This document shows, piece after piece, positions 26,406-47,260 of a stretch of DNA of 64,000 nt; the first letter of the stretch is position 1; each line of letters begins with the position of its first letter. Under the pieces are notes generated by a model. That model was not told where the DNA came from. It searched no databases and was given only the letters and a program-made list of their open reading frames with translations. The DNA comes from Nocardiopsis sp. CC223A (lineage in GTDB: Bacteria; Actinomycetota; Actinomycetes; Streptosporangiales; Streptosporangiaceae): positions 1-64,000 of the forward strand of contig NZ_JASFDV010000010.1 of the NCBI RefSeq assembly GCF_030766825.1, given 5' to 3'. Position numbers and translations under genes: made by a program.

Positions 26406-29400
26406 TCACAGGCCGCGGGCGGCGAGGTGCTCGTGGAAGAGTGCGCCGACGACGTCGACGTGCCCTTCCAGCATGGTGAAGTGGTCGCCGGGGACGTGCA
26501 GGACCTCGTGCCCGACCGTCCAGGTGAACGGGGCGAGCGGGCGGCCGTCCCGGTCGACGGTGGGCTGCTCCGGGCGTAGCTGGAGTACCGGGGTCGTCAC
26601 CGGCTCGGGCCGCCAGCCCTGGAACAGCCGCAGGTAGGCGCCCATGGCGGTGAGTCGGACGTCGTCCATGATGCCGATCATCTCCGCGCGTTCCACCACG
26701 CCCGTCTCGATGGTGGGCAGGCCCGACACGTCCAGGTCCGCGGGGTCGGGGGTGTCCATCAGGGCGGTGAGCACCGGCACCGGGGCCTTTCCCCGGGGCT
26801 TCCCCCGGAAAACGCCCCGGCGGCCCCTCCCCCGGGTCCGGAGGGCCTCCAGGCGGCGCACCACCTCGTGGGCGACCCAGCCGCCGGAGGAGCGGCTGAC
26901 CAGGATGTAGGGGTCGTCGCCCGCACAGGCGGCGACGGCGTCGGCCAGTACCTCCGCGACGGCGTCGATGCTCTCCGGGAGCGGTTCGCCCTCGCCGAAC
27001 CCGGGCTGGGCGATGACGTCCACCCGGCGGTGGCCGCGGATGTGCCCGGCGAACCGCGCGAACTCCTGGACCCCGGACACCATGAGGATCGACGGCAGGC
27101 AGATGAGCCGGGTGGCCTCTCCTTCGCGCGACAGCCGGACCGGGACGCGGGGCGGCCCGTCGGCGGTGCCGGTGAAGGTGGGCCGCGTCCGGGAGGCGGA
27201 CCACAGCAGGTCGAGGCCGTCGCCGATGCGCCGCCTGCGGCAGGCGTCCACGAACAGGTCGACCAGCCCGTCGGCGGCGGGGCGCTCGTCCTCGCGGGCC
27301 GGAGCCTCCTCGACGGTGATCTCGGCCGCCAGGTGGGCGGCCAGGGCGCTCGGGGTGGGGTGGGCGAAGGCCAGTCCGGCGGGCAGTCGCAGGCCGGTGG
27401 CCGCGGCGAGCCGGTTGCGCAGTTCCACGGCGGTGAGCGAGTCGAAGCCCAACTCCAGGAACGGGGTGTCGGCGCCGACCTCGGAGCCGCCGGTGTGCCC
27501 CAGCACCTCGGCGGTCATCGCCAGCACGTGGGTGAGGGCGGTCTTCGGGCGCTGCCCGGCGGGGGTGCGGGCCAGGGCGGCGCGCAGGTCGGCGGTGTCC
27601 GCTCCCGCGCTCCCGGCCCGGCGGCGCGGCGGCCGCACCAGCCCGGAGAGCATCGTGGAGACCGTCCCGGTGCGGGCCGCCCGGGCCCGGGCACCGGCCA
27701 GGTCCAGGGGCACGGGCAGCAGGTGGGGGCGGCCGGTGGCCAGGGCCGCGTCGAAGAGGGCGAGCCCGTGGCCGGTGGCCATCGGTCCGGCCAGCCCCAG
27801 CCGGGCGTAGCGGCCGATGTCGCTGTCGTCCAGGCGGGTGGTGCCGCCGCCGCGCCGGGCCCACATGCCCCAGGACAGGGACACCGCGTGCAGGCCGCGG
27901 GCACGCCGACGGTGGGCGATCGTGTCGGTGTAGGCGTTGGCGGCGCTGTAGTGGGCCTGGCCGGGGCTGCCCAGGGTGCCGGCCGCGGAGGAGAAGAGCA
28001 CGAACGCGGCCGTGTCGGGGAGCAGTTCGTCCAGGTGGTGGACGGCGTCGACCTTGGGACGCAGCACCCGGTCGACGGCTTCGGGGGTGACCGAGGTGAG
28101 CAGGGCGTCGTCCAGGGCGGCGGCGACGTGGACGACAGCGGTGATGTCGTGTCCGGACAGCAGTGCGGCCAGCCGGTCGCGGTCGGCGGCGTCACAGGCG
28201 GCCAGGACGGCGTTGGCGCCGCGGTCGGCCAGATCGGCTTCGAGTTCGGCGGCGCCCTTGGCGTCGCGGCCGCTGCGGCTGACCAGAAGCAGGTCGCGCA
28301 CCCCGTACCGGTACACCAGGTGGCGGGCGACCTCCCCGCCCAGGGTGCCGGTGGCCCCGGTGACCAGGACGGTGCCCGATCCCAGCCGGAGGGGCCCGCC
28401 GGTGCGTTCGGTGCGGGCCAGGCGGGGCGACAGCGCCCGCCCGGCGCGGATCGCGGTCTGCTCGCCGCCGCCGGTCAGCGCGGCGACCAGGACGGGGGTG
28501 CTGCGGCCGGGGTCGTCGGTGTCCACGATGGCGAACCGGCCGGGGTGCTCCTGGGCGGCGGCGCGCACCAGTCCCCACAGGGGGGCGTGGACCGTGTCGG
28601 GGACGTCCTCCCCGTCGGCGGCGGCCACGGCCCGGTGGGTGAGCACGACCTGGCGGGCGTTCTCGGTGCGGGGGTCGGCCAGCAGCCGCTGCACGGTGGC
28701 GACGGTGTCCTTGACGGCGGTGCGCACGTCCGCGGGTCCGGGGTCGGCAGGGGGCACCAGCCGGGCCAGGAGAACGTGGTCGGGGGCGGGCGCCCCGGTG
28801 TCGAGTGCGGACAGCAGGGTGTCCGCGTCGGGGTGGGCACGGACGGTGTGCCCGGCGGCGGTGAGCGCCGAGGCGGTGTCGAACAGGTCCTCTCCGAGCA
28901 CGGCCCACACCTGCCGGTCGGCGGAGGGCGCCGCGGGGGCGGCTCCCCAGGCGATGTGGAAGAGGTCGTCCGCGCCCGTCGCGGCCGCGGTGGCGACGGG
29001 CGCGGGGGCGCGCAGGACCAGGGAGTCGACGGTGGCGACGGGCGCCCCGGCGGAGTCGGCGAGCAGCATCGCCACCTCGTCGGTCCCGGTGGGCCGCATA
29101 TGGACGCGCAGTCCGGTGGCTCCGACGGCGTGCAGGGTGACACCGCTCCAGGTGAAGGGGAGCCGCACCCCGTCGCGGGGCATCCAGGGGGCGCAGCCGA
29201 TGGCGTGCTGGGCGGCGTCGGCCAGGGCGGGGTGCAGCCCGAACCGGGCGGCGTCGGCGTGCTGGGCGGCGGGCAGCTCGATCTCGGCCCACACCTCGTC
29301 ACCGCGGGTCCAGGCGGCGGTCAGTCCGCGGAAGGCGGGCCCGTAGGCGTAGCCGACGGCCTCCAGGCCGGGATAGAGGTCGGCGGTGTCGACGGGTTCG

Positions 29401-32400
29401 GCCCCCGGGGGCGGCCAGACGGTGAGGTCGCCCGCGGCGGTGGCGGGTTCGGGGGCCAGGGTCCCGGCGGCGTGCCGGGTCCAGGGGCGCTCCCCCAGGT
29501 CGGGGGCACCGGGGTCGCCCGCAGGGCGGGCGTGCACGCTGATCGCACGGTGTCCGTCGGCGTCGGCGGCCTCAACGGTGACCTGCACCTGGACCGCGCC
29601 GGTCTCGGACAGGGCCAGGGGCGCCTGGACGATGAGCTCGGCGACGTGGGGGACACCGAGCCGGTCCCCGGCGGTGAGGGCGAGGTCGAGGAAGGCGGTG
29701 CCGGGCAGCAGCACGGTGTCGCCCGCGGCGTGGTCGGCCAGCCAGGGCTGGGCGGTGCGGGAGAGCCGCCCGGTGAACAGGACCGTGCCGGTGTCGGCGA
29801 GCGGCAGGGCGGCGCCGAGCAGCGGGTGCTCCTCGGTCTCCAGCCCGGCGGCGGACACGTCGCCGCGGGTACCGGTGCCGGTCATCCACAGCCGGCGGTG
29901 CTGGAAGGCGTAGGAGGGCAGGTCGACGGTCCGGGCGCCCTCGCCGAACACGGTCGTCCAGTCGGGGGCGGCGCCGTGCGCGAACGCCTCGGCCAGAGCG
30001 GTGCGCAGCCGTTCCGTGCCGCCCTCGCCGCGGCGCAGGGTGCCCTGGGCGGAGGCGTTCGCTCCGGTGTCGGCGATGGTCTCGGTGATCGGGATGGTGA
30101 GCACCGGATGGGCGCTGACCTCGATGAACCGGGTGTGCCCGGCGGCGAGGAGGGCCTCGGTGGCCTGTTGGAAGCGCACCGTGCCGCTCAGGCCCGCGTA
30201 CCAGTGCCCGGCGTCGGCGGGCCGGTCCAGGAGACCGCCGGTGACCGGTGTGTACAGGGGGATGCCGGGGGTTCCGGGGGCCAGGTGCGCCAGCCCGCCG
30301 AGGAGTTCGTCGCGGACCGCCTCGGTGTGCGGTGTGTGGGAGATGAGGGAGTCCGCGAACAGGCGGGCGTGCACGCCCCGGGCCGCGCAGTCCTCCATGA
30401 GTCGGCCGATCTCGTCGCGGTCCCCGGCCACGACGGTGGTCCCGGGGCTGTTGACCACGGCGATGTGCAGGTCGGCGGCGTCGGCCAGGTGCGGTTCGAG
30501 GTCGGCGGCACCCTGCGATACCACGGCCATGGCGACGTCACCGGTGAGGCGCCCCAGCGCCCGGCTGCGCACGGCGATGACCTCGGCGGACTGTTCGAGG
30601 GTGAGGGCGCCGGCGATGTACGCGGCGGCGACCTCGCCCTGGGAGTGGCCGACGACGGCGTCGGGGTGGACACCGTGGGCGCGCCACAGGGCGGTGAGGC
30701 CGATCATGACCGCCCACAGCAGCTGGGGGACGATGTCGGCGCGGTCGGGCGGGGGCGCGCCGGGGCGGCCGAGGAGGACGTCGGTGAGCCGCCAGTCGTT
30801 GTGCGGGGCCAGTGCGCGTTCGCAGTCGGCGATGCGGTCGGCGAACACGGACGACTCGGCGAGCAGGGCGCGGGCCATGCCCTCCCACTGGGACCCCTGG
30901 CCGGGGTAGACGAACACGGTGCGGCCCTCGCGGGCGCGGCCGCGGGCGATGCCGGGTGCGCGGACGGCCCCGTCGGTCTCGGGGGCCCTGGAGATCAGCG
31001 TGTCCAGGCGGGACAGCAGGGTGGGCAGGTCGGCGCCGACGACGGCGGCGCGGTGGGCGTGCGCGGTGCGGGCGGCGGCCAGGGTCCACCCGATGTCGGC
31101 CGGATCCGCGTCGGGACGGGCGGTGACGTGGTCGCGCAGGCGGCGGGCCTGGTCGGCGAGGGCGTCGGCGGTGTGTCCGGACAGCACCCACGGTACGGGG
31201 ACCCGGGTCGTGCCGGGGGCCGGTCCGGCGACCATGACGGTGCTCTCCCGGGCGGGCTCGGGCTCGGGCTCGGGTGCCTGTTCCAGGACCGCGTGGACGT
31301 TGGTGCCGCTGGCCCCGAACGCGGAGACCCCGGCGCGGCGCGGCCGCCCGGTGTCGGGCCAGGGCCGGGCCCCGGTGAGCAGCCGGACCCCGCCCGTCTC
31401 CCAGTCGACGTGCGGGGTGGGTTCGGAGACGTGCAGGGTGGACGGCAGTACCCCGTGGCGCAGCGCCTGGACGGTCTTGATCACCCCGGCCACCCCGGCG
31501 GCGGCGCCGGTGTGGCCGATGTTGGACTTGAGGGAGCCCAACCACAGGGGTTCGCCGGTGCGGTGGCGGCCGTAGGCGGCCATGAGCGCCCCGGCCTCGA
31601 TGGGGTCGCCCAGCCGGGTGCCGGTGCCGTGCGCCTCGACCAGGTCCACGTCGGCGGGGGTCAGCCGGGCGTCGGCCAGGGCGGCGCGGATCACCCGCTC
31701 CTGGGCGGGGCCGCTGGGGGCGGTCAGTCCGCTGGAGGCACCGTCCTGGTTGACGGCGATCCCGCGCAGCAGGGCCAGGATGCGGCGGCCGTTGCGGCGG
31801 GCGTCGGACAGCCGCTCCAGGACGATCATGCCCGCGGCCTCCCCCCAGCCGGTACCGTCGGCGTCGGCGGAGAACGCCTTGCAGCGGCCGTCGGGGGACA
31901 GCACACCGTGCCCGTCGAAGGACACCCAGGAGGTGACCTCGGTGTACACCCCCGACCCTCCGGCCAGGGCCAGGGAGGACTCGCCCGAGCGTAGGGAGCG
32001 CACGGCCAGGGCGATGGCGGTCAGCGAGGACGAGCAGGCGGTGTCGACGGTGACGGCGGGGCCCTCCAGCCCCAGGGTGTAGGACAGCCGCCCGGCGGCG
32101 ACGGCGGGCATGCCGCCGAGCAGCCGGTAGCCGACCAGGCCGGGCGGCGACTCCTGGACGGGCGGGCCGTAACCCTGGCCGACCAGGCCGACGAACACCC
32201 CGGCGGGGGTGGCGCGCAGGGAGCCGGGGACGATCCCGGCGTGTTCGAGGGCCTCCCAGGCGGTCTCCAGGACGAGTCGGTGCTGGGGGTCCATGGCCAG
32301 CGCCTCGCGGGGGTTGATCCCGAAGAAGGCCGGGTCGAAGTCCCCGGCGTCGGCGAGGAAGGAGGCCGAGCGGACGTACGTGGAACCGGGGGTGTCGGGG

Positions 32401-32648
32401 TCCGGCGACAGCAGCCGCTCCAGGTCCCAGCCGCGGTCCTCGGGGAAGGGGCCGAGGGTCTCGCGGCCCTCGGCCACCAGGTCCCAGAGGGCCTCGGGTC
32501 CGGCGGCGCCGGGGACGCGGCTGCCGATGCCGACGATCGCTATCGGCTCGTGGTCGCGCTCCTCCAGCTCTTCGGCCCGGGTACGGGCGTGGCGCAGGTC
32601 GACGGCCATCTTTTTGACCAGGTCGCGGAACTTGTCCTCATTCGTCAT
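26406..32648 (-). CDS. Type I PKS, final module: KS-AT-DH-KR-ACP-TE
   Basis: 2080 residues; ATG 32648 after GGAGAG. N-terminal docking coiled coil (1-32); KS (33-455, Cys205 in DTACSSS); AT (577-870, GHSQGE with Ser669, specificity motif LISH at 768-771 instead of YASH or HAFH); DH (938-1215, His973 in DHAAGDTVLLPG, Asp1144 in DAAQHA); KR (1425-1670, GATGTLGG, LDD, Tyr1567, so B-type); ACP (~1700-1775, GFDSLT Ser1737); TE (1795-2080). The TE nucleophile region is SRSSG (Ser1920, first Gly replaced by Ser), Asp1965, His2056, with a basic insert RTRGRGRRGVFRGKPRGK. It should add the last extender, leave an alpha,beta double bond and release the chain. Last gene of the PKS operon. Confidence 0.95.
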   Translation of the reverse strand: MTNEDKFRDLVKKMAVDLRHARTRAEELEERDHEPIAIVGIGSRVPGAAGPEALWDLVAEGRETLGPFPEDRGWDLERLLSPDPDTPGSTYVRSASFLADAGDFDPAFFGINPREALAMDPQHRLVLETAWEALEHAGIVPGSLRATPAGVFVGLVGQGYGPPVQESPPGLVGYRLLGGMPAVAAGRLSYTLGLEGPAVTVDTACSSSLTAIALAVRSLRSGESSLALAGGSGVYTEVTSWVSFDGHGVLSPDGRCKAFSADADGTGWGEAAGMIVLERLSDARRNGRRILALLRGIAVNQDGASSGLTAPSGPAQERVIRAALADARLTPADVDLVEAHGTGTRLGDPIEAGALMAAYGRHRTGEPLWLGSLKSNIGHTGAAAGVAGVIKTVQALRHGVLPSTLHVSEPTPHVDWETGGVRLLTGARPWPDTGRPRRAGVSAFGASGTNVHAVLEQAPEPEPEPARESTVMVAGPAPGTTRVPVPWVLSGHTADALADQARRLRDHVTARPDADPADIGWTLAAARTAHAHRAAVVGADLPTLLSRLDTLISRAPETDGAVRAPGIARGRAREGRTVFVYPGQGSQWEGMARALLAESSVFADRIADCERALAPHNDWRLTDVLLGRPGAPPPDRADIVPQLLWAVMIGLTALWRAHGVHPDAVVGHSQGEVAAAYIAGALTLEQSAEVIAVRSRALGRLTGDVAMAVVSQGAADLEPHLADAADLHIAVVNSPGTTVVAGDRDEIGRLMEDCAARGVHARLFADSLISHTPHTEAVRDELLGGLAHLAPGTPGIPLYTPVTGGLLDRPADAGHWYAGLSGTVRFQQATEALLAAGHTRFIEVSAHPVLTIPITETIADTGANASAQGTLRRGEGGTERLRTALAEAFAHGAAPDWTTVFGEGARTVDLPSYAFQHRRLWMTGTGTRGDVSAAGLETEEHPLLGAALPLADTGTVLFTGRLSRTAQPWLADHAAGDTVLLPGTAFLDLALTAGDRLGVPHVAELIVQAPLALSETGAVQVQVTVEAADADGHRAISVHARPAGDPGAPDLGERPWTRHAAGTLAPEPATAAGDLTVWPPPGAEPVDTADLYPGLEAVGYAYGPAFRGLTAAWTRGDEVWAEIELPAAQHADAARFGLHPALADAAQHAIGCAPWMPRDGVRLPFTWSGVTLHAVGATGLRVHMRPTGTDEVAMLLADSAGAPVATVDSLVLRAPAPVATAAATGADDLFHIAWGAAPAAPSADRQVWAVLGEDLFDTASALTAAGHTVRAHPDADTLLSALDTGAPAPDHVLLARLVPPADPGPADVRTAVKDTVATVQRLLADPRTENARQVVLTHRAVAAADGEDVPDTVHAPLWGLVRAAAQEHPGRFAIVDTDDPGRSTPVLVAALTGGGEQTAIRAGRALSPRLARTERTGGPLRLGSGTVLVTGATGTLGGEVARHLVYRYGVRDLLLVSRSGRDAKGAAELEADLADRGANAVLAACDAADRDRLAALLSGHDITAVVHVAAALDDALLTSVTPEAVDRVLRPKVDAVHHLDELLPDTAAFVLFSSAAGTLGSPGQAHYSAANAYTDTIAHRRRARGLHAVSLSWGMWARRGGGTTRLDDSDIGRYARLGLAGPMATGHGLALFDAALATGRPHLLPVPLDLAGARARAARTGTVSTMLSGLVRPPRRRAGSAGADTADLRAALARTPAGQRPKTALTHVLAMTAEVLGHTGGSEVGADTPFLELGFDSLTAVELRNRLAAATGLRLPAGLAFAHPTPSALAAHLAAEITVEEAPAREDERPAADGLVDLFVDACRRRRIGDGLDLLWSASRTRPTFTGTADGPPRVPVRLSREGEATRLICLPSILMVSGVQEFARFAGHIRGHRRVDVIAQPGFGEGEPLPESIDAVAEVLADAVAACAGDDPYILVSRSSGGWVAHEVVRRLEALRTRGRGRRGVFRGKPRGKAPVPVLTALMDTPDPADLDVSGLPTIETGVVERAEMIGIMDDVRLTAMGAYLRLFQGWRPEPVTTPVLQLRPEQPTVDRDGRPLAPFTWTVGHEVLHVPGDHFTMLEGHVDVVGALFHEHLAARGL

Positions 32649-32680
32649 ACGTGTGCTCTCCGGTCGTCGGGCACCCAGGG

Positions 32681-35600
32681 TCAAGAGATCCCGAATTCCT
32701 GGTCGATGAGGGCCAGGAGTTGGTCGTCGGTGGCCTCGTCCAGGTCGGCACCGGCGCTCTCGGGCTCGGTGTCGACCCGGCGCAGCAGGCCGCGCAGCCG
32801 GTCGGCGAGTTCACCGCGGACCCCGTCGGGGACGGAACCCGCGTTCTGGGCTGCCGCCACAGCGGCCTCCAGCCGGGCCAGCTCGTCCAGCAGCGGCAGC
32901 GGCGGCGGGGCGGTCCGGGCTTCGAGCAGTCCGTACACGTGCTCGGCCAGCGCGGCGGGCGTGGCCCGGTCCAGGACCACCGTCACGGGTAGGTCCAGGC
33001 CGGTCAGCTCGTTGAGGCGGTTGCGCAACCGGACGGCGGCCAACGAGGTGCCGCCGGCGTCGAGGAAGCCGCGCAGCGGGTCCACGGCCTCGGATCCGTC
33101 ATGGCCCAGGACCGCGGCGGTCTCGCCGCGGACCAGTTCCAGAACGGCCCCGGCGCGCTCGTCCGCGGAGAGCCCGGCCGGCGGGGACCAGCCCTCCGCG
33201 GCGGTCTCGGGTCCGCCCGCGTCGGAGGCGGGAACGGTCGCTGCGGAGGGCGCGGTGGTGCTCCGGTCGCGCCAGTAGCGACGGCGCTGGAAGGCGTAGG
33301 TGGGCAGGTCCACGGTGCGGACGCCGTCACCGAACACGGCCGTCCAGTCGGGGACGGCACCGTGCGCGAACGCCTCGGCCAGGGCGGCCCGGAAGCGGTC
33401 GAGGCCGCCCTCGTCACGGCGCAGGGTGGACACGGCGGCGGCGTCGCGCGCCCCCTCGGCCTCGAAGGTCTCCAGCAGCACGGGCGAGAGCACCGGGTGC
33501 GGCCCGACCTCGACGAACAGGTCGTGGCCGTCGCTGAGCAGGGCCCTGACCGCGTCGTGGAAACGGACCGGCTCGGCGAGGTTGCGGTACCAGTAGGAGG
33601 CGTCCAGCTCTCCCTCCCCCGCCACGGCACCGGTGAGGCAGGAGAGGAAGGGGACCTCCCCGGCCCGGGAGGAGATCCGGGCCAGGTCGGCGTGGATGCG
33701 CTCGCGCAGCCGGGCGACGTGCGGGGTGTGGGAGGCGTAGTCCACGGCGACCAGGCGGGCCCGCACCCCCTGCTCCTCGTACTCCTTGACCAGGTGGGCG
33801 ACGGCCTCGGGCTCACCCGCCACCACGGTGGAGGACGGTCCGTTGACGACGGCGATGTGCAGGTCGGCGCCGCGGCCCTCCAGGTCGGCGCGGACCCGGT
33901 CGGCGGGCAGCGCCACCGACGCCATCGCGCCGGTCCCCGACAGTTCCAGGACGGCGCGGCTGCGCAGCGCCACCACCGCGGCGGCGTCCTCCAGGGACAG
34001 CAGTCCGGCGACGCAGGCTGCGGCGACCTCGCCCTGGGAGTGGCCCACGACGGCGTCGGGGTGCAGCCCGTGGGAGCGCCACAGGGCGGCCAGGGCCACC
34101 ATGACCGCCCACAGCGCCGGCTGGACGACGTCGACGCGCTCCAGGGAGGGCGCGCCGGGGTCGCGGCGCAGCACGGCGGTCAGCGACCAGTCGGTGTGCG
34201 GCGCCAGGGCGCTCTCACAGTCGGCGATGGTCCCGGCGAACACCGGGGAGTCGGCCAACAGGTCCGCGGCCATGCCGGCCCACTGGCCGCCCTGTCCGGG
34301 GAACACCCACACGGTGCGGCGGTCGGGGCGGGCCCGGCCGGTGACGACGCCGGGGGCGGGCCGGCGCTCGGCCAGTGCCGACAGCGAGGAGAGCAGGGTG
34401 TCGCGGTCCCCGCCGCAGGCGACGGCGCGGTGTTCGAAGGCGTCGCGGGCGGTGGCCAGGGTCCACCCGACGTCGACCGGGTCCAGGCCGGGGTCGGCGG
34501 CGACGCGGTCGCGCAGCCGGGCGGCCTGCCCGGCCAGGGCGGCGGGGGTACGGGCCGACAGCGGCCACAGCACCGTCCCGGGGGCGGCGGTGCGTTCCGC
34601 GGACTCCGCCTCGGGTCCGGCGAAGGCCTGTTCTACGACGATGTGCGCGTTGGTGCCGCTCATCCCGAACGAGGACACCGCGGCACGGCGCGGGGCCCCG
34701 GTCTCGGGCCAGGTCCGCCGCCGGTCCAGCAGCCGGACGGTGCCCTCTGACCAGTCGACGTACGCGGTGGGTTCGTCGGCGTGCAGGGTCCGCGGCAGCA
34801 CCCCGTGGCGCAGCGCCAGCACCAGCTTGATCAGCCCGGAGATCCCGGCGGCGGCCTGGGCGTGGCCCAGGTTGGACTTGAGGGAGCCCAGCCACAGCGG
34901 CCGGTCGGGGGTGTGCGCCCGCCCGTAGGCGGCGATGAGGGCCTGCGCCTCGATGGGGTCGCCCAGCCGGGTGCCGGTGCCGTGCGCCTCGACCAGGTCC
35001 ACGTCGGCGGGGGTCAGCCGGGCGTCGGCCAGGGCGGCGCGGATCACCCGCTCCTGGGCGGGGCCGCTGGGGGCGGTCAGCCCGTTGGAGGCACCGTCCT
35101 GGTTGACGGCGCTGCCCCGGATCACGGCGAGCACGGGGTGCCCGGCCCGGCGGGCGTCGGACAGCCGCTCCAGGACGATCATCCCGGCGCCCTCGGAGAA
35201 CCCCGCACCGTCGGCCCCGGCCCCGAACGCCTTGCAGCGGCCGTCGGCGGCCAGGCCGCGCAGGTGCGTGAACTCGGTGAGGATGCCCGGCTGCGCCATG
35301 ACGGTGGCCCCGCCCGCGAGCGCGAGTGCGCATTCCCCTGCACGCAGGGCCTTCACGGCCAGATGCACGGCCACGAGGGAGGAGGAACAGGCGGTGTCGA
35401 CGGTGACCGCCGGGCCGGTCAGGCCCAGGGTGTAGGAGAGGCGGCCGGAGGCGACGCTGGTGGTGGTGCCGCTGACCGCGAACCCGTCGTCGGGGGCGTC
35501 GGTGAGGGAGGGCCCGTACTCCTGGGCGATGGCGCCCACGTAGACGCCGGTGTCGCTGCCCGACAGCGAGGACGGGACGATGCCGGAATGCTCCAGGGCC

Positions 35601-35995
35601 TCCCAGGCCACCTCCAGCAGCAGCCGCTGCTGGGGTTCCATGGACTCGGCCTCGCGGGGGGAGATGCCGAAGAACCCGGGGTCGAAGTCGGCGGCCCCGG
35701 ACAGGAACGCCCCCCGGGACATGGCCGAGCGGGGGCGGCCGGGGTCGTCGCCCAGCAGGGACTCCAGGTCCCAGCCTCGGTCCCCGGGCAGCGGGCCCCG
35801 CACCTCGTCACCGCGTTCGAGCAGGTCCCACAGGGCTCCGGGGGTGTCGATGCCGCCGGGCAGCCGGCAGCCCAGGCCGACGACGGCGACCGGCTCGGGG
35901 GACCGGTCCAGTTGTTCCTGGAGGCGTTCGTTCTTCTTGAGCGCCGAACGCAGGGCCGTGACGAGTTTGGCGGTCTGATCACTATCGGTGGCCAT
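32681..35995 (-). CDS. Type I PKS, module 2: KS-AT-ACP
   Basis: 1104 residues. N-terminal docking helix ([20 protein letters not shown]), KS (33-455, Cys203), AT (560-855, GHSQGE Ser653, RVDVVQ, YASH 753-756: methylmalonyl-type), ACP (943-1022, GGTSLAAV Ser984), and a C-terminal docking region ([19 protein letters not shown]). No reductive domain, so it should leave a beta-keto group. ATG 35995 lies 14 bp inside the upstream PKS gene, hence translational coupling. Part of its KS (34947-35080) is base-for-base identical to the KS of the next gene. Confidence 0.95.
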
Positions 35996-38900
35996 CAACG
36001 GTCTCCTGTTCGCCTTCGGTGAAAGGGTCGTCGTCCCCGCTCAGGGCGAGGTCGAGCAGGCCTTCCACGTCCATGTCGTCGATGCGGCTGTCCTCGGTGT
36101 CCTCCGGTCCGTGGCCGCCAGGAGCGGGTGCGGCGGGTGCGGGCTCCGGCACGACGGGGAAGAGCGCCCCGTCGACGAAGCGGGCCAGCGCCCGCGGGGT
36201 CGGGTGGTCGAAGACCGCGGTGGCGGGCAGCCTCAGGCCGCAGGCGGCCCCCAGGCGGTTGCGCAGTTCCACCCCGGTCAGGGAGTCCAGGCCCAGTTCC
36301 TTGAAGGGCCGGTCGGCGGGCACGTCGGCGGTGCCCGCCTCGCCCCGGCCCAGGACGACGGCGGTGTGCTCGCGCACGGCCGCGACCAGGGTCCGCTCCC
36401 GTTCGGCGCCGGTGAGCCCGGCCAGGCGGGCGGCCGCCAGCGGCGGTTCGGCGGCCGCGGGTCCGGCCGTCTCCCCCCGGTCGCCGAGCAGCTCGCGCAG
36501 GATCGGGAGGTCCGGGGCGGCCTGCGTGTCGAGCAGGGCGGGGGCGAGCACGGCCCGGTCCAGGTAGAGGGCGGCGTCCATGCGGGCCAGGGCGCGGTCG
36601 GTGGCCATGGGCAGCAGGCCGCCACGGCCCAAGGTGTCCAGGTCGCCGTCGTCCAGGTGGCCGGTCATCCCGCTGGCCTCACCCCACAGGCCCCAGGCCA
36701 GGGACAGGGCGGGCAGTCCGCGCTGGCGGCGGTGGTGGGCCAGGGAGTCGCAGAACATGTTGGCGGCGGCGTAGTTGGCCTGCCCCGCCGACCCCAGGGT
36801 CCCGGTGATCGACGAGAACAGCAGGAACGTCCCCAGGTCGTGGCCCGCGGTGAGTTCGTGCAGGTTCCAGGCGGCGTCCACCTTGGGCCGCAGGACGGCC
36901 TCCACCTTGGCGTCGTCCAGCGACAGCACGGTGGCGTCGTCCAGGACCCCGGCGGTGTGCACGACGGCGCCCAGCGGCCGGTCGAGCGATCCGAGCAGGC
37001 GGGCCAGGGAGGCCCGGTCGGCGGCGTCGCAGGCGTGCACCTCCACACGGGCGCCCAGGGCGCGCAGCTCCTCGGTGCGGGCGTCCTGGCCGTCGGCGCC
37101 GGCCCCGCTGCGGCTGACCAGGACCAGGTCCCGGACCCCGTACCAGGTGGCCAGGTGGCGGGCCACCAGGTGGCCGAGGGTCCCGGTGCCGCCGGTGATC
37201 AGCACTGCGGAGTCCTCGGGGAAGGGCACGGGCACCCGCAGGACGGTCTTGCCGACGGTCTCGCCGCGTTGCAGGGCGCGGAACGCCTCACGGGCGCCGC
37301 GGACGTCGTGCACGGTGGTGGGCAGCGGGCGCAGCACCCCGGAGGCGAACAGCTCCATGACGCGTTCGAGCATCTGCCCGATCCGCTCGGGGGCGACCTC
37401 CGGCAGGACGAACGAGTGGTACCCGCGACCGGGATGGGCGGCGGAGACCTCCGCCTCGTCCCGGACGTCGGTGCGGCCCATCTCCACGAACCGGCCGCCC
37501 GCACCGGACCCGCCGCCCGGGGCGCGCAGCAGGCGCAGCGAGGCGTCGACGAACTCGCCGCTCAGGGAGTTGAGGACCACGTCGAACCCGCGTCCGCCGT
37601 TGGCGGCCCGCAGGGAGATCTCGAAGTCCAGGGTGCGGGAGGAGGCCAGGTGCTCGTGGGGGACTCCGTACTCGACGGCGGCCTTCCACTTGTGCGGGCT
37701 GGCGGTCCCGAACACCTTGGCGCCCATGTGCCGGGCGAGCTGGACGGCGGCCAGCCCCACCCCGCCCGCGGCGGCGTGGACCAGTACGCTCTCCCCGGGC
37801 CGGACCGCCGCGATGTCCACCAGGGCGTGGTAGGCGGTGAGGAAGGCGACGGGCACGGCCGCGGCCTCCTCGAAGCCCCACCCCTCGGGGATGCGTCCCA
37901 GACACCGCCGGTCGGCGATCGCCACCGGGCCGAACGCCGAGCCGAACATCCCGGCCACCCGGTCGCCGGGGGTCAGGTCGGTGACCCCGGGGCCGACCTC
38001 CAGGACGGTCCCCGCACCCTCCAGGCCGATGCCGTAGTCGTCGGGGACCATGCCCAGGGCGACCACGACGTCGCGGAAGTTGACCCCGGCGGCGCGCACG
38101 GCGACGCGCACCTGGTGCTGGCCCAGGGGCGTGGCCGCCTCGGGGGCGGGCACCGGAGAGACCGAGTCCACGGAACCGGGGGCGGTGGCGGCCAGCCGCC
38201 ACAGCGGGCCGGGCGGCACGAGGTCGCCCGCCGCGGCCGCGGGCACCAGTCGGGGCACCAGCACGCGGCCCGAGCGCAGGGCGACCTGGGGCTCGCCGAG
38301 AGCGGTGATCCGGGCCAGCACCCGGTGGGAGTCCTCCGCCCCGTCGGAGTCCACGATCACGAGGCGGTCGGGGTGCTCGCGCTGGGCGGAGCGGAGCAGT
38401 CCCCATACGGAGGAGGCGGCCAATCCGCTGAGCCGGTCGTCGGGGTGGGCGACCACCGAGCGCCAGGTGACGAGCACGAGGCGGGCGTGGGCGGTGCGCG
38501 GGTCCGACAGCCAGGTGCGCACCGAGGCCAGTGCGGAGGACAGCCCCTCGCGAACGGCGTCGGGCAACGACCCGTGGTCGGCGTAGACGGCGCGGGCGGG
38601 CAGTTCGGCGTACACGACGTCGGGCACCGGACCTTCGAGGGCCGAGCCGTCCAGGGAGGGCAGGTCGACGGGGATCACGCCGTCGGTAGCGGGGCCGTCG
38701 ACCTCCTGCCAGTGCACCCGGTACAGGTCGGGTTCCTCCTCGGGGGCCGAGGGCAGGGCGGCGGGGTCGACCGGGCGCATGACCAGCTCGTCCACGGCCA
38801 GCACCGGCGCCCCGGCGTCGTCGGCGCAGACCAGCCGGTAGCGGTCGCCGTCCAGGTGCTCCACGAGGGTGCGCAGGACGCGCGGCGGCGAGGAGAGGGG

Positions 38901-41900
38901 GGCGGCGCGCACCCCGCTCCAGGCGAACGGCACCAGCGGGGCGCCTCCCCCGGGGGCGCCGTGCAGCAGGACCGCGTGCAGGGCCGCGTCGAGCAGGGCC
39001 GGGTGCGGTCCGGTGAAGGGACCGCGCGCGGTGCCGTCGGGCAGCGCGGTCTCGACGAGCAGCGCGCCCTCGACCCGCCGCCACACCCGGCGCAGTCCGC
39101 GAAAGACCGGACCGTAGGCGTAGCCGCGGCGCAGCAGCCCGGCGTAGGCCTTCCGTTCGTCGAACCCGGCGTCCACGACGCCCCCGCCCGGCCAGTCCGC
39201 CGGGACCACCGCGTGGAGCTCCGCGGCGGCCCCGGCGGATCGGTCGGATTCGGCCGGGGAGTCCGCGGTGAGGGTCCCCGAGGCGTGGCGGACCCACGAA
39301 CCCCCGGGTCCGCGAGCGTGGACCGCGAGGGCCCGATGGCCGTCGGCGGTCGGGGCGGAGACCGTGACCTGTAGGTCCACCGCACCGCCGCGCGGGAGCA
39401 GGACCGGGCTCTCCAGGGCGAGGTCGGCGATCCGGGGGGCACCGGTGCGGGCACCGGCGTGCAGGGCCAGCTCCACCAGGGCGGTACCGGGCAACAGGGT
39501 GCGGCCGAGCAGCCGGTGGTCGGCGGTCCAGGCGGGGGCGCCGGCCCCGACGGAGCCGGTGAAGACGGTGTCGCCGCCGACCAGTTCCAGCCCTCCGTCC
39601 AGGAGCGGGGGCGCGGCCGACGGCGCGGGGGCCGCGGCCGGCTCCACCCAGTGGCGGCGCCGCTGGAAGGGCAGATCCGGCAGGTGCACCGGGGCTCCCT
39701 CGTCGGCGACGCCCTCCAGGATCAGGTGGGCGTTGGTACCGCTGATCCCGAACGAGGACACCGCGGCACGGCGCGGGCGGCCGGTGTCGGGCCAGGGTTC
39801 GCCGTCGGTGAGCAGCCGCACGCCGCTGCCCTCCCACTCCACGCGCGGGGTGGGCGCGTCGGCGTGCAGGGTGCGGGGCAGCCTGCCGTGGCGCAGTGCC
39901 TGAACGGTCTTGATCACCCCGGCCACACCGGCTGCGGCCTGGGAGTGCCCGATGTTGGACTTGAGGGAGCCCAGACGCAGCGGTTCGTCGCGCTCGTCCC
40001 CGTAGACGGAGATGAGGGCGTTCGCCTCGATCGGATCGCCCAGGCGGGTTCCGGTGCCGTGCGCCTCCACGGCGTCCACCTCGCCCGGACGGAGTCCGGC
40101 GGCGGCCAGGGCCTGCCGCAGGACACGTTCCTGGGCGGCGGGGTTGGGGGCGGTGAGCCCGTTGGAGGCGCCGTCGGAGTTGACAGCGCCGCCCCGGATC
40201 AGGGCCAGCACGGGGCGCCCGGCCCGACGGGCGGCGGAGAGGCGCTCCAGGAGGATCACGCCGACGCCCTCGGCCCAGGCGGTGCCGTCGGCGTCGGCGC
40301 CGAACGCCTTGCAGCGCCCGTCCGCGGACAGCCCGCGCTGGGCGGAGAACTCCAGGAACATGCCGGGGGTGGACATCACGGTGACCCCGCCGGCCAGGGC
40401 CATCGCGCATTCGTTGCGGCGCAGCGACTCCGCGGCCTGGTGGATCGCCACGAGGGAGGAGGAGCAGGCGGTGTCGACGGTCAGCGCCGGTCCGTGCAGG
40501 CCCAGCACGTACGCGATGCGGCCCGAGGCGACACTGGTCGTGGAGCCGGTGAGGCGGTACCCGCCGTCGCCCTCCCGGGCCGGGTCGGCGAGCCGCGGCC
40601 CGTAGTCGGAGGCCATCGCGCCGACGAACACGCCCACCGAGGATCCGCGCAGGTCGTCGGCGGTGAGGCCGGCCCGGTGGACGGCCTCCCAGGAGGTCTC
40701 CAGGAGCAGGCGCTGCTGGGGGTCCATCGCGTCGGCCTCGCGGCGGGAGATCCCGAAGAAGTCCGCGTCGAACAGGTCGGCGTCGTAGAGGAACCCGCCC
40801 CGCCGGGTGTAGGTGCGCCCGGGGGTCCCGGGGGTGGGGTGGTAGATCGCGTCGGTGTCCCAGAAGCGGTTGTCGGGGAAGTCGCCGGTGGCGTCCACCC
40901 CCTCCTCGACCAGGCGCCACAGCGCCTCGGGGGAGGTCGCCCCACCGGGCAGCCGGCAGGCCATCGCGGTGATGGCGATCGGGTCGTCCCCGGCCGCGGC
41001 GGCCGCCGGCGGTGGCGGGGTCCCGACCGGCTCCGGAGCCGGGGTCGGCCGGGGCGCGGCGGCCGGGGCGGTGCCCCCGTTCAGGACGACCTCGTCCCGG
41101 CCCAGTTCACCGGCGAGGAACCGGGCGAGCGCCGCCGGAGTGGGCTGCTCGAACAGGACGGTGTCGCCGAGCCGCACCCCCGTGGCCCGGTCCAGGGCGT
41201 CGCGCAGCTCCAGCATCATGATCGAGTCGAAGCCCAGGTCGCGGAAGGCGCGCTGCTCCCCGCCGGGCGCCAGCGAGCCGCGGGACAGCACCCGGGCGGC
41301 CTTCTCGCACACCAGTTCCAGCACCGAGGCGGTGCGCTCGGGCGGCACCGACGCCTCCTCCGGGGCCGCCGACCAGTCGACGGTGGCCCCGGTGCGCGCC
41401 CCGGTGGCGTTCTCGGGCCAGAACCGGCGGCGCTGGAACCGGTAGGAGGGCAGGTCGATGCGGTGCGCCCCGGTGCCCTCGAACAGACTCGGCCAGTCGA
41501 TGTCGACCCCGGCGGTGAAGGCGCGGGCCGCCGAGTTCAGCAGCTGTGCCTGGTCGCCCTCACCCCGGCGCAGGGTCTTGAGGACGTGTCCGGCCACCCC
41601 GGCCCGGTCCAGGGAACTCCGCAGGCCGTGCGCGAGCACCGGGTGCGGGCCGACCTCCAGGAACACCCGGTGGCCGTCGCCGACCAGGGCGTCGACGGCG
41701 TCGGAGAACCGTACGGGGTTGCGCAGGCCCGCGTACCAGTAGTCGGCGTCCAGCGGCAGGTCGCCGAGTTCGGCGCCGGTGAGCGTCGAGTAGAACGGGA
41801 CGTCGGGGGCTCGTCGGTGCACCCGGCCCAGGTACTCGGCGACGCGGTCGCGGATGAGCTCGACGTGCGGGGAGTGCGAGGCGTAGTCCACGTCGACCAG

Positions 41901-44045
41901 GGCGGCGTGCACGCCCCGGTCAGCGCAGTGCTCGACGGCTTGGCGTACCGCGCGGGGGCCGCCCGACACCACCACGGAGTCGGGCCCGTTGATCACGGCG
42001 ACGTACAGGTCGGGCAGGGTGCGGGCGAGCTCCTCGGCCTCCTCGGCGGAGATGCCCAGTGAGGCCATGCCGCCGCTGCCGGCGAGCCCGGTCAGCGCCT
42101 GGCTGCGCAGCGACACGATCCGGGCGGCCTCCTCCACCGACAGGGCACCGGCCACGCAGGCTGCGGCCAGTTCGCCCTGGGAGTGGCCGATGACGGCGGC
42201 GGGGCGCACCCCCAGCGTCTCCCACACCCGGGCGAGGGAGACCATGACGGCCCACAGCACCGGCTGGATCACGTCGGCCCGGGCCAGGGGACCGGTCACC
42301 GGGGGCGCCTGCGGTTCGCCGCGCAGCACCGAGGACAGGGACCAGTCGACGTAGGGGCCCAGGGCGCGTTCGCATTCGCGGACCCGGGCGGAGAACGCCT
42401 CGGCCAGGACGCCGTCGGCGTTCAGCAGGTCGCGGCCCATGCCGACCCACTGTCCGCCCTGTCCGGGGAAGACCAGGACCGGTCCGGGGCCGCCGGTGGA
42501 GGCGATCCCCTCGGGGCGGACCGACTCCAGTTCGCGGGTGCCGCCGTCGCCGGGGGCGAACACGACCGCGCGGTGTTCGAACACTTCGCGGGTGGTGGCC
42601 AGGGAGAAGCCGATGTCGCGGGCCGTGAGGCCGGGGTGGGCGGACACGTGGGCGTGCAGTGCGGAGGCCTGGGCGCGCAGCGCCTCCTCCGAACGCGCCG
42701 ACAGCACCCACGGCACGGGGTCCAGGGTCCGGGTGACCGGTGCCTCTTTGGTGGGCCGGTCGGCGGGCGCGGGCCCCAGCACGAGGTGGCAGTTGGTACC
42801 GCCCATACCGAAGGACGACACCCCGGCCAGCGGCGCGTGGCCGGGCCAGGGTTCACGGCGGGTGTGCACGGTCAGGCCCAGGGCGTCCAGGTCGATGCCG
42901 GGCGCGGGCTCGGTGAAGTTCAGGGTCGGCGGGATCTGCTGGTGCTCCAGGGCGAGCACGGTCTTGACCAGGCCGACGATCCCGGCGGCGCCCTCCAGGT
43001 GCCCCACGTTGGTCTTGACCGAACCGACGCGCAGAGGTTCCCGCCGGTCGGTGGTGAAGACCCGGCCCAGGGCGGCGGCCTCCACCGGGTCTCCGGCGGG
43101 GGTGCCGGTGCCGTGGAGTTCGACGTAGCCGACCAGGTCGGCCCGTTTGCCCGCGTCGGCGTGGGCGGCGCGGACGACCTCGGCCTGGCCGCGGACGGTG
43201 GGCCGGGTGAGGAAGGAGTCCCCGCCGACGTGGTTGACGGCGCCGCCGTGAACGACGGCGTGGATCCGGTCCCCGTCGGCCACGGCGCGGCCGAGCGGCT
43301 TGAGGACGACGAGGGCGCCGCCCTCACCGCGCACGTACCCGTTGGCTCCGGCGTCGAAGGGCCGGATCCGGGCGTCGGGGGACAGCCCGCCGAACCGGTC
43401 CACCTGCTCGGTGCTCTCCGGGACGAGGATGAGGTTGACCCCGCCGGCCACGGCGATCTCGCTCTCGCCCCGACGCAGGCTCTCCACCGCCAGGTGCACG
43501 CCGACCAGGGAGGAGGACTGGCCGGAGTCCACGGTGAGGCTGGGGCCGCGCACCCCCAGGAAGTGGGAGAGCCGGTTGGCGATCATCGCGCGGTGGGTGC
43601 CGGTGAGGGTGTGGTGGGTGATCGCCCCGGCACCGCCCCGGTCGTGCAGGAGGGCGTAGTCGGAGCCGATGGCGGCGATGAACACGCCGACGCGGGCGTC
43701 GCGCAGGGCTCCGGGGGCGGTGCGGGAGTTCTCGACCGCCTCATGGCCGAGTTCGAGCACGAGCCGCTGCTGCGGGTCCATCGCCAGCGCCTCACGCGGG
43801 GAGATCCCGAAGAAGTCGGCGTCGAAGTATTCGGCGTCGTGGAGGTAGCCGCCCCAGTGGGGTCCGCGTTCGGCGGAGCCGCCGCCGAGGCGTTCGGGCG
43901 GGGCCGTGATGGCCTCACGTCCTTCGCCGAGCAACCGCCAGAAGGCCTCGGGGGTGCCCGCGCCCGGTAGCCGGCAGGAGATACCGACGATGGCGATGGG
44001 CTCCCAGGCGCCGGGGGCAGGGGTTCCGGTCGGTCCGCCGTGCAT
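35982..44045 (-). CDS. Type I PKS: loading KSQ-AT-ACP and AT-less module KS-DH-ER-KR-ACP
   Basis: 2687 residues; ATG 44045 after GGGAAGGG. Loading module: KSQ (15-425, Gln176 in DSGQSSS, CAG codon at 43518-43520, His311 and His349 kept), AT (525-815, GHSQGE Ser622, YASH 721-724, methylmalonyl-type), ACP (905-980, Ser941). This predicts propionyl starter by decarboxylation. Module 1: KS (1020-1443, Cys1194), then only ~10 residues before the post-AT motif [12 protein letters not shown] (1455-1466): the AT and KS-AT linker are absent. DH (His1510, Asp1686), ER (HAAAGGVG ~2090), KR (GTGTLG ~2287, LDD, Tyr2425), ACP (Ser2588), C-terminal docking domain. All reductive sites look intact, so the two-carbon unit should be fully reduced if an extender is supplied in trans. 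Confidence 0.95.
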
Positions 44046-44107
44046 CGTTGCCCTTCCCTTTCGACTGCCCTCGTCCGGCCCGAGCACAACCGCGGTCCGC
44101 GTCGCTG

Positions 44108-44125
44108 CCCGTGCAGGTGCACGGG
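44108..44125. promoter_or_regulatory. 18-bp palindrome in the PKS leader
   Basis: CCCGTGCAGGTGCACGGG has perfect 8-bp arms around GG, 63 bp before the PKS start. The GTGCA half-site also occurs in the WhiJ-locus operators. A candidate regulator site; no binding protein is known. Confidence 0.45.
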
Positions 44126-44394
44126 AGCGCCGATGTGGCCGTGATGAAATTCGGACACCCGGCAACTCCGGAACCCACAATCTCAGAGATTCACGGCAAC
44201 TACCCCACGGAACGGCATTCAGGGCCAAACAGGAACCAACCTGAAGGAGAGTAACGCGCGCTCTCAATCGCTGACAACAGCAGGAGTTTTTTCGGACGGG
44301 AGGATTCGCCCCCTGCCACATGGAGTTAATGCGCGTGGAACAGTTTACGGACGCAAGCGGAAGAAAATGGCCAGGGTTTCCGGACAAGGGAAAA

Positions 44395-44434: not shown

Positions 44435-45694
44435 TCAGCCGCCGTTGCGCGCACGCACCTCACCGATGTAGCGCTGGGCCGCCTCAGGGTCGAACATCCA
44501 GGACTTGTAGTCGGACGGGCTGTCCCACCCCTGGATCCAACGGTCGGCGACCTCCTGGTACTGCACCGCCGCACCCAGCATGTTCATGATGTGGTCGGGC
44601 AGCGACTGTTCGACCATGGTGGACGCGAACTCCGCCCAGGCCTGGTTGTCCTGTCCGAATTCCCAGAACCTGTCGAAGATCCGCACCATGAAATCCTCGT
44701 CGAACGGCTTGTCGCCGTGCTCGATGATGCCCTCCAGGTAGGCCTCGGCGCACCGGGTGGAGTTGTTCCAGCTCTGCCCCACGAACGGGTCCATGGTGAC
44801 CACCACGTCGGCCATGCCGATCGCGAGCCCGCCCGAGGGGAGCCGGCCCACGGGGTTGCGCACCTGCGGCGTCAGGTCCTCGACGATGGTGCTGCGCCCG
44901 TCCACCAGCACCGCGTCCTTGCACCGCTCGAAGAACTCGGGCGCGTACTTGCGCATCAGGTCCTTCATCCGGCGCAGCTGCTCCTCCGGGCCCGGCCGGT
45001 CCGGCCAGGCGTCCATCGGGCCGCCCTTCTTGTCCACCAGCAGCAGGTTGTGGGCGGGACCCTCCTGGGTGAGGATCGGGGTGAGCATGATGTTGCCCGC
45101 CTCCTCCGTCACCCCGAACCAGCCGATGTTCTCCGACTCCCCCGCGTGCGGCGGCCACAGGTCGTAGGCGTAGGCCTGGGCCAGGGCCCGGGGACGGGTC
45201 CCGCTGAACCGGCTGGTGTCGTGGTCGAAGAGCTGGCCCAGCTCCCCGTGGCCGACCGCGACGATGATCAGGTCGAACATCCGGGAGAAGTAGTCGAGGT
45301 CGGTCACGGTGACCCCGTGGATCACCACCTTCCCGCCGCGATCCTCGAAGGACTCCAGCCAGTCGGCCATCTTCACCCGGCGGTCGACCGCCACCGAGTA
45401 GCCGTTCCCCGGGTGGGAGCGGCCCCTGATGGCGGTGACGGGCTTCCCCTCGCGGAAGACGGCCAGCTTCTGCTCGCGGATCTGCGGGGAGAGCGCGCTC
45501 CAGAAGTCGAGGTCGAACTTGCGCTCGTACTCCAGGGCCGTGGGGAAGGTGAACTGGGAGATCGAGGGCCGGCCGGTCCGGATCTCCAGCGATGACTGCC
45601 CCGTGATCACCGTGACGTCGTAGCCGTGGGTCAGAAGCCCGTGGGCCAGGTGCAGGCCGGCGTGGCCCGCGCCGACGATGAGGATCTTGCGCAT
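44435..45694 (-). CDS. StyA-like FAD-dependent monooxygenase
   Basis: A 419-residue flavoprotein: dinucleotide motif [15 protein letters not shown] at the N-terminus, [33 protein letters not shown], and the styrene-monooxygenase-type C-terminal FAD motif [32 protein letters not shown]. StyA-type group E enzymes epoxidise alkenes or oxidise indoles using FADH2 from a separate reductase; no StyB reductase is adjacent. It starts 71 bp after cvnD on the same strand and ends at a terminator before the PKS, so it looks like the last gene of the conservon operon. It could still tailor the PKS alkene product. ATG 45694 follows AGGAAAG. Confidence 0.82.
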
Positions 45695-45765: not shown

Positions 45766-46371
45766 TCAGGCGACGGGCTCGCTGGCGCGGTTGTGCTCCA
45801 GGGCGTACCGCAGGAGGGCCTTGAGGACCTCTCCCCCGGACTGCCGCTGGCGGGCGTCGAAGTCGATGATGGGTACCTCGGGACTGACCTCCAGGGCCTC
45901 GCGGACCTGTTCGGCCGTGTAGTCCAGCTGCCCCTCGAACCGGTTCAGCGCCACGATGTAGGGGATGCGCTTGTTCGTCTCGAAGTAGTCGACGGCGTCG
46001 AAGGAGTCCGCCAGCCGACGGCAGTCGACCACGACGACGGCGCCCACGGCGCCCCTGACGAGATCGTCCCACATGAACCAGAACCGCGCCTGGCCCGGTG
46101 TGCCGAACATGTACATGACGAGTTCGTCGTCGATGGTGATGCGGCCGAAGTCCATCGCGACGGTGGTGGTCGTCTTGTCGGGGGTGATCGAGGTGTCGTC
46201 ATGACCGATGCTCGCCTCGGTCATGATCGCCTCGGTGGTGACGGGCGGGATCTCGGACACCGAGCGCACCAGAGTCGTCTTGCCGGCGCCGAAGCCGCCG
46301 GCGATGACGATCTTGCTCGACATCTTCTTGCGATTGGACCGCTTGTCACTGGAAAAGTCGTTCGAGACCAC
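45766..46371 (-). CDS. cvnD: Conservon GTPase CvnD
   Basis: A 201-residue small GTPase-like protein: Walker A GGFGAGKTT, TTTTVAMDFGRI switch region, G3 FGTPGQARFWFMWDDL, and an N-R-F-E in place of NKxD. CvnD proteins form a membrane-associated signalling complex with CvnA-C in actinomycetes. GTG 46371 is chosen because GGAGAGG precedes it and it overlaps cvnC by 26 bp, as in other conservons; ATG 46323 (MSSKIV) is an alternative. Confidence 0.9.
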   Translation of the reverse strand: MVSNDFSSDKRSNRKKMSSKIVIAGGFGAGKTTLVRSVSEIPPVTTEAIMTEASIGHDDTSITPDKTTTTVAMDFGRITIDDELVMYMFGTPGQARFWFMWDDLVRGAVGAVVVVDCRRLADSFDAVDYFETNKRIPYIVALNRFEGQLDYTAEQVREALEVSPEVPIIDFDARQRQSGGEVLKALLRYALEHNRASEPVA

Positions 46372-46705
46372 GAAGAGCCCTCTCCAGAACCTGGTTTTCC
46401 GATGGACTGCTGCCGGTGATGGTCGGGTGAATGTACACCAGGTCCTGTTCGGCCAGGTCACTGACCAGGACCTGGGTGACGCCCAGGGGAATGCCCAACT
46501 CGGCCGAGATCTCGGCCAGCGACCGGGTCTCCCGGCACAGCTTGTAAATACTGGTCGACTCCGGCATGAGGGTGCCAGGGGGCTCCTGCCCGGGCTCGGA
46601 GGTCGAGACCAGGGTCTGCACCATCAGCGGATGCCGCGACCGCGTTCGCCCACCGGTGAAGGTGAACGGGCGAACGCGGTTACTCCTTCGCCTGCGGAAG
46701 CTCAT
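46346..46705 (-). CDS. cvnC: Conservon DUF742 protein CvnC
   Basis: A 119-residue DUF742 winged-helix-like protein: RPFTFTGGRTRSRHPLMVQTLVS, SIYKLCRETRSLAEISAELGIPLGVTQVLVSDLAEQDLVYIH. Acts with CvnB and CvnD as an accessory of the CvnA kinase-like protein. It lies between cvnB and cvnD and overlaps cvnD. Confidence 0.92.
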   Translation of the reverse strand: MSFRRRRSNRVRPFTFTGGRTRSRHPLMVQTLVSTSEPGQEPPGTLMPESTSIYKLCRETRSLAEISAELGIPLGVTQVLVSDLAEQDLVYIHPTITGSSPSENQVLERALRGLERLFQ

Positions 46706-46751
46706 TGACGTGGCAACCTCATTCCTGCTGAACCGTAACGGGTCACCGTCG

Positions 46752-47177
46752 TCAGTTCTGGATGACTTCGCGCAGCTGCGAGCGCAGCTGCGGCGTGAGC
46801 ACGTGGGCGACGTTCTCGACGAGCTTGGCCATCTGGAAGCCCACGATCTTCAGCTCGGTCCCGGGGGCGGTGAGCACCGCCATGCAGGAGCCGTCGCTGA
46901 TCGCCATGATGAACAGGTGTCCGTGGTTGAAGCGCACGAGCAACTGCTCGCACTCTCCGCGCTGGAACAGGCTCGCCCCTCCCACGGCCAGGCTGTGCAG
47001 GCCGCTGGCGATGGCGGCGAGCTGCTCGGCGTGCTCCTCGGGGAAGTCGCTGGAGTGGGTGAGGACCAGGCCGTCGGAGGAGACCACGACGGCGTGCTCG
47101 ACACCGCGCACGTCGCGCACGAACCGGTCGATGAGCCATGAGAAGTTCTCAACACTGTCGTTCACGGGTTCAGTCAT
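46752..47177 (-). CDS. cvnB: Conservon Roadblock/LC7 protein CvnB
   Basis: A 141-residue Roadblock/LC7-fold protein: FSWLIDRFVRDVRGVEHAVVVSSDGLVLTHSSDFPEEHAEQLAAIASGLHSLA, LIVR-like strand and VGFQMAKLVENVAHVLTPQLR. In conservons this MglB-like protein is thought to act on the CvnD GTPase. ATG 47177 follows GAGGCAGGTAG. Confidence 0.92.
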   Translation of the reverse strand: MTEPVNDSVENFSWLIDRFVRDVRGVEHAVVVSSDGLVLTHSSDFPEEHAEQLAAIASGLHSLAVGGASLFQRGECEQLLVRFNHGHLFIMAISDGSCMAVLTAPGTELKIVGFQMAKLVENVAHVLTPQLRSQLREVIQN

Positions 47178-47260
47178 GCTCTACCTGCCTCGGCCGAGTG
47201 TCTTAGGGGTTCGGGGGATCTGCGCGTGCGCCGGGGTGCGCACGCCGGGGGTGCGGCCGC

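Follow-up and report, generated by a model that had tools for sequence, protein, structure and literature searches.

An extension module without an acyltransferase in a conserved Nocardiopsis polyketide synthase, and the loading acyltransferase as its proposed supplier

Background

How does an extension module that has no acyltransferase (AT) of its own obtain its extender unit when the assembly line around it is built on the cis-AT plan? This question is raised by a polyketide synthase (PKS) locus of Nocardiopsis sp. CC223A that lies in the window studied here, a contiguous stretch of 64,000 nucleotides. An earlier note on this DNA had claimed that in module 1 of the first synthase protein, PKS-A, the ketosynthase (KS) ends normally and is followed after about 10 residues by the motif that otherwise comes after an AT, the KS-AT linker and the whole AT being missing, and it had suggested AT sharing as the explanation. 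The parts of the locus are as follows, all on the minus strand:

35982..44387 (-): open frame of PKS-A (2801 aa as one frame), with the order KSQ-AT-ACP-KS-[no LD, no AT]-DH-ER-KR-ACP
42738..44006 (-): KSQ, the decarboxylase of the loading module, with DSGQSSS at its active site
41502..42476 (-): loading AT (GHSQG / YASH, a signature of the methylmalonyl type), proposed to supply both ACPs
41070..41285 (-): ACP-L (GFDS)
39714..40997 (-): KS1, C-H-H intact, without the KS-AT linker domain
39636..39728 (-): AT-less junction, comprising the KS end (HLILEG), a 9-residue linker at 39684-39710 and the motif at 39648-39683, followed by DH
38748..39608 (-): DH of module 1
37233..38147 (-): ER of module 1
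36663..37217 (-): KR of module 1
36153..36422 (-): ACP1, the carrier of the AT-less module
32681..35998 (-): PKS-B, KS-AT-ACP, AT GHSQG / YASH
26406..32684 (-): PKS-C, KS-AT-DH-KR-ACP-TE, AT GHSQG / LISH
44435..45694 (-): styrene-monooxygenase-like flavoprotein (Smoa_sbd), conserved upstream neighbor

The likely start of PKS-A falls inside its open frame, near 44045. A set of histidine kinase, Roadblock and ATP-binding genes at 45766-50239 adjoins the styrene-monooxygenase-like gene.

Results and discussion

Module 1 lacks both the linker domain and the acyltransferase

In the translation of 35982-44387 (-), the 16 residues with which KS1 ends map to 39711-39758 (-) and the 12-residue motif leading into DH maps to 39648-39683 (-), and the nine residues VADEGAPVH that separate them agree with the spacing given in the earlier note. 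The chain thus passes from KS to DH in about 35 residues, with the KS-AT linker domain (LD) and the whole AT absent. A Pfam search of the 2801-aa protein bears this out: it recovers a single AT stretch, at residues 638-962, which is the loading AT, and no AT downstream of the second KS. The KS-to-DH gap measures 29-37 aa in 33 orthologous modules versus 106-141 aa in 58 KS-AT pairs from the same clusters (88-96 aa in the KSQ-AT pairs of these clusters, n=33), so that the linker is missing along with the AT. By its sequence, module 1 lacks the whole stretch that would run from the KS-terminal NAHVILEE-type site to the LPxxPFx5W site. As also claimed earlier, the other modules of the synthase keep cis-ATs, one each in PKS-B and PKS-C. 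Modeling of KS1, the junction and DH by AlphaFold2 with 28 orthologs reached a mean pLDDT of 54.7, the KS part being unusable.

Among 196 KS domains in control loci from outside Nocardiopsis (L019-L089), 170 are followed by an AT and 25 by no listed domain, and the short AT-less junction is found in none of the 196. One of these loci, from Streptomyces katrae (L084), encodes in the second module of ORF 6209-18856 a KS followed by a half-length AT, its first half only, before the DH.

The junction is conserved across the genus

The genome that contains the window is a draft of 194 contigs, in which an assembly collapse between similar AT regions could conceivably have created the junction. The earlier note had itself raised this objection and had proposed a comparison of orthologous clusters. 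The comparison showed the AT-less state to be conserved: the AT-less junction was read in 36 of 40 Nocardiopsis genomes, one further genome is frameshifted at the junction and three are without ACP-L and KS1, so that an AT between KS1 and DH occurs in 0/40. Match length by itself is no proof of an AT-less junction, as ordinary KS-AT modules match up to query position 335 (G007, G015 and G024 give examples in their second hits). All 33 junctions from the genomes in which the match spans the junction in one frame, free of stops, were aligned and read. In G022 and G019 the junction was read through, with the sequences running off contig ends; in G014 it is present alongside a frameshift inside KS1; in G009 the frameshift hits the junction, where about 110 bases separate KS from DH; and G002, G006 and G037 are the three genomes with a collapsed PKS-A lacking ACP-L and KS1. 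A search for the module 1 DH-ER-KR in the seven genomes without a full junction match found it in all seven. Independently assembled genomes share this junction, several of them consisting of 1-4 contigs (e.g. G001, G008, G031, G035 and G038). An assembly artifact is thereby refuted, and we assign it a probability close to nil.

The genomic setting is comparably stable. The styrene-monooxygenase-like gene adjoins PKS-A in all seven long named loci, accompanied there by genes for a histidine kinase, a Roadblock protein and an ATP-binding protein. Among the 35 loci L090-L124 (L109 and L110 being near copies of each other) the styrene-monooxygenase-like gene is found in 30; the exceptions are L099, L114, L120, L123 and L124, which may end short of it. 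On the other side, a gene for an HrpA-like helicase is present in 8/35 of these loci, and also in L174 and L176. A megablast search against plasmids returned 59 records with partial matches, none reaching 80% query coverage. We read the PKS locus as a fixed core locus of the genus, and on these comparisons the AT-less state is older than the spread of Nocardiopsis and has been retained in most of it.

Module 1 is likely to be active

With two of its normal domains missing, module 1 might be a broken relic that extends no chain. We examined its catalytic residues in an alignment of 31 proteins, from which five split-frame loci (L102, L119-L122) were excluded. In the loading module, the Gln that replaces the active Cys of KSQ, the hallmark of such modules, is present in all 30 rows reaching the position, and the Ser and His of the loading AT and the Ser of ACP-L are intact in 31/31. 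In module 1, the Cys, both His and the Lys of KS1 are found in 31/31 rows, the DH His in 31/31 and its Asp in 29/29 rows reaching it, and the KR Ser, Tyr, Asn and Lys together with the ACP1 Ser in 28/28 rows reaching these positions. The ER is less constant, its VLNSLSGE stretch being degraded in five otherwise intact loci (L095-L098 and L101), and this counts in favor of a relic. In the window itself the catalytic residues of KSQ, the loading AT, ACP-L, KS1, DH, KR and ACP1 are all intact. Against the relic, every row reaching the catalytic residues of KS1, DH and KR has them intact, and KS1 is under purifying selection: in five pairs of our choosing its pN/pS was 0.14-0.25, ranking lowest among eight domains for three pairs and second lowest for the other two.

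A natural experiment is offered by the three collapsed forms of PKS-A, each with the architecture KSQ-AT-DH-ER-KR-ACP:

L175:2553-8948: collapsed PKS-A of G037
L177:5641-12006: collapsed PKS-A of G002
L178:4988-11320: collapsed PKS-A of G006

The KR Tyr is lost in all three, as against its retention in 28/28 elsewhere, and each of them also has altered DH motifs. A comparison of L177 with L178 gives identities of 50% for the DH, 72% for the KR and 79% for the KSQ. In intact pairs, too, the DH ranks last or close to last in conservation among the enzyme domains (75-89%), and its decay in the collapsed forms as compared with intact loci is a matter of degree. In a tree of KSQ plus AT the three collapsed forms fall within one half of the genus (100/98), which indicates that the loss of KS1 is derived; L177 groups with L178 at 100/100, and L175 lies elsewhere on a long branch with weak support. 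The best tree needs two losses of KS1, its starred branches forcing only one, and the loss of the KR is to be counted as one or two events rather than three. We infer that reductive domains decay where there is nothing left to reduce and that their catalytic residues are kept as long as KS1 is present. The KR being dead only where KS1 is gone, this pattern argues that the AT-less KS1 does extend a chain, and we regard a broken relic as very improbable.

The loading acyltransferase as the proposed donor to ACP1

With assembly collapse disposed of and AT-bearing orthologs having failed to appear among the 40 genomes, AT sharing, as suggested at the outset, is the reading left. The genome search for a free AT that the earlier note had recommended yielded seven AT-domain hits: three in the PKS cluster, three in other KS-carrying proteins and one stand-alone protein of 363-390 aa on contig C29, which is FabD-like, although below the fabD cut-off, and adjoins a fabH-like gene. 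A dedicated discrete AT was not found in or near the cluster. Because the genome's sole stand-alone AT is this FabD-like protein, encoded on a different contig next to a fabH-like gene, a donor within PKS-A, its loading AT, is better supported than a free trans-acting AT.

We propose PKS-A to be an initiating bimodule whose two carriers are served by a single AT. The loading AT would take methylmalonyl-CoA and charge ACP-L, and KSQ would decarboxylate the methylmalonyl group on ACP-L to a propionyl starter, to be passed to KS1. The same AT would also charge ACP1, on the same polypeptide, with methylmalonyl, after which KS1 could condense starter and extender, and KR, DH and ER would reduce the diketide to about 2-methylpentanoyl for transfer to PKS-B. 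Methylmalonyl loading of ACP-L and ACP1 alike by the loading AT is the best-supported of the mechanisms considered and in our judgment probably correct. One AT for ACP-L and ACP1 would mean that starter and first extender are fixed by one specificity. The expected scaffold would comprise a propionyl starter, one methylmalonyl unit fully reduced and one methylmalonyl unit as a ketone; its last unit would be dehydrated and of uncertain type, the LISH motif of the third AT being atypical, with release by the TE.

YASH is a methylmalonyl signature and HAFH a malonyl signature, motif-based assignment of AT specificity being only indicative. Counting ATs over 250 aa, the loading AT has GHSQG/YASH in 35/35 bimodular loci, and loading ATs are intact in 37/38 when the collapsed forms are also counted. 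The gene-2 ATs have YASH in 19/31, RAFH or HAFH in 9/31 and FAAH in 3/31, and the gene-3 ATs have YASH in 8/29. The HAFH motif is also named in PMC6274090. PKS-A is nearly constant among species, while the AT motifs of the downstream modules differ. The downstream modules (26406-35998) themselves vary by species, being KS-AT-ACP or KS-AT-KR-ACP and then carrying DH-KR or DH-ER-KR.

The collapsed forms bear on the donor as well. Both L177 and L178 retain an intact loading AT but no carrier other than ACP1, so that self-priming of the protein would require this AT to load ACP1. The collapsed forms, having lost ACP-L and kept ACP1, also speak against an alternative in which ACP-L first carries the starter and is then reloaded with an extender, KS1 condensing with methylmalonyl-ACP-L and the chain moving to ACP1 later. 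Such reloading would dispense with any contact between AT and ACP1 and agrees with the intact ACP-L Ser in 31/31 rows, but it requires an extra transfer step, and we see only a slim chance of it.

The carriers themselves give the shared-AT proposal no help. ACP1 has a mean identity of 44-46% to ACP2 and ACP3 versus 37% to ACP-L; of the three downstream ACPs it is nonetheless the nearest to ACP-L (37%, the others 35 and 33%). These similarities do not favor a shared AT recognition of ACP-L and ACP1 and, if anything, lean against it. A further point against the proposal is that the linker domain, which KS1 lacks, helps ACP docking in known modules.

A further candidate supplier is the FabD-like malonyltransferase of fatty-acid synthesis, with which module 1 would add malonyl. 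FabD normally serves the fatty-acid ACP, and the gene lies on another contig, C29; both points count against this supply. In its favor are its standing as the sole stand-alone AT found in the genome and the assignment of the AT-less modules 2 and 5 of the haliamide synthase to a stand-alone malonate-type AT in PMC6274090. We hold this supply to be improbable.

Relatives beyond the genus and possible supply from another polypeptide

Further relatives were sought with a junction query of 365 aa at a threshold of 1e-78, the family, class and order searches scoring the best 5-8 candidates per genome. In the family search at least 21 of 250 genomes matched, all among the matches scored being Nocardiopsis; in the class search at least 15 of 394 matched, 13 of them Nocardiopsis and two from a second family (f17). 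With an f17 query, 10/35 f17 genomes and at least 37/249 genomes of the order passed the same threshold, most of the additional ones through the KS alone. Five long hits (G042, G259, G510, G586 and G646) proved on inspection to be ordinary KS-AT modules and were rejected.

The f17 bimodules (L143:3474-10445 and L144:4063-11445) have the architecture KSQ-ACP-KS-DH-KR-ACP, in which Pfam recognizes no AT. Their loading AT is either absent or dead (GEGDG, the AT match being weak and below threshold), and module 1 contains none. In both genomes a PKS protein encoded just upstream of the bimodule has an AT with GHSIG. The KS1 of f17 and that of Nocardiopsis form one clade (99/86; 85 in a quick tree), which makes one origin likely. 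In KSQ trees the two are not paired and have long branches.

As an alternative to deletion of LD and AT, we considered an origin by insertion of an ACP-KS unit into a KS-AT-DH-ER-KR-ACP module. The LPxxxFx5W motif is present both after the loading AT and after KS1, which fits insertion and deletion alike; the f17 outgroup has the bimodule as well.

With the loading AT of L175 also dead (GDAQG), the initiating polypeptides of this locus and of f17, if they work, would receive the extenders for their ACPs from another polypeptide. This lends some weight to the possibility that ACP1 receives its extender in trans, from the AT of PKS-B, which is the next polypeptide, or from that of PKS-C, as do the GHSIG-bearing AT just upstream in both f17 genomes and the position of PKS-B, which directly follows and whose KS must meet ACP1 in any case. 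However, the motif of the gene-2 AT is inconstant, so that the first extender would vary with it, and in the bimodular loci the loading AT lies closer to ACP1, is intact and does not vary. We place this supply second, as a less likely but live rival, retaining the loading AT as the preferred donor to ACP1.

Comparison with known systems and implications

In the open-licence literature, as far as its accessible text goes, we found no Nocardiopsis PKS described as having a module without an AT, and an earlier description is possible. The nocapyrone cluster ncpA-D of Nocardiopsis alba encodes a type I PKS (PMC4110758, PMC8155685), which PMC8155685 terms unusual and not further investigated; the word could refer to the AT-less feature and would then be an earlier description. 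By description only, the two loci appear to differ: the nocapyrone locus holds a methyltransferase according to PMC8155685, whereas none is found among the nine neighboring ORFs scanned around PKS-A, and module 3 here has DH and KR.

In domain order, in its KSQ-type loading module and in the cis-ATs of PKS-B and PKS-C, the locus resembles cis-AT modular type I PKSs of the DEBS type. In these an AT of its own belongs to every extension module, which holds for PKS-B and PKS-C; unlike them, PKS-A has neither an AT nor a KS-AT linker in module 1. KS1 nests among actinobacterial KS domains that precede ATs, in a tree that contained no trans-AT KS. With trans-AT PKSs the locus shares an AT-less extension module and the LPxxPFx5W motif after the KS, but no dedicated discrete AT was found here and the other modules of the cluster keep their ATs. 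Moreover, in trans-AT lines a flanking subdomain sits between the KS and the LPxxPFx5W motif, as described in PMC11260071 and PMC6941969; this subdomain of about 100 residues is absent from PKS-A, where the motif is present after a gap that is 29-37 aa across the 33 loci.

We lean modestly towards a joint reading of these comparisons, in which one loading AT charging two carriers and feeding an LD-less KS would constitute a third supply route between cis-AT and trans-AT, and in which the lineages would have gone on to lose KS1 with reductive decay in some Nocardiopsis and to lose both ATs in the second family. If true, the locus is a natural compact case in which an AT is shared and a modular KS works without a linker domain, and its collapsed orthologs allow it to be asked directly which domains need which. 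PMC11260071 gives the NAHVILEE and LPTYPFx5W sites as limits already tried or used in engineered PKS fusions, and the stretch missing between them would be a natural counterpart of such constructs. A parallel is also offered by the haliamide PKS-NRPS of Haliangium ochraceum, in which, according to PMC6274090, modules 2 and 5 are without an AT and a stand-alone malonate-type AT has been proposed to serve them: in both systems single AT-less modules stand among modules that possess ATs, but in Nocardiopsis the likely donor is the loading AT of the same polypeptide.
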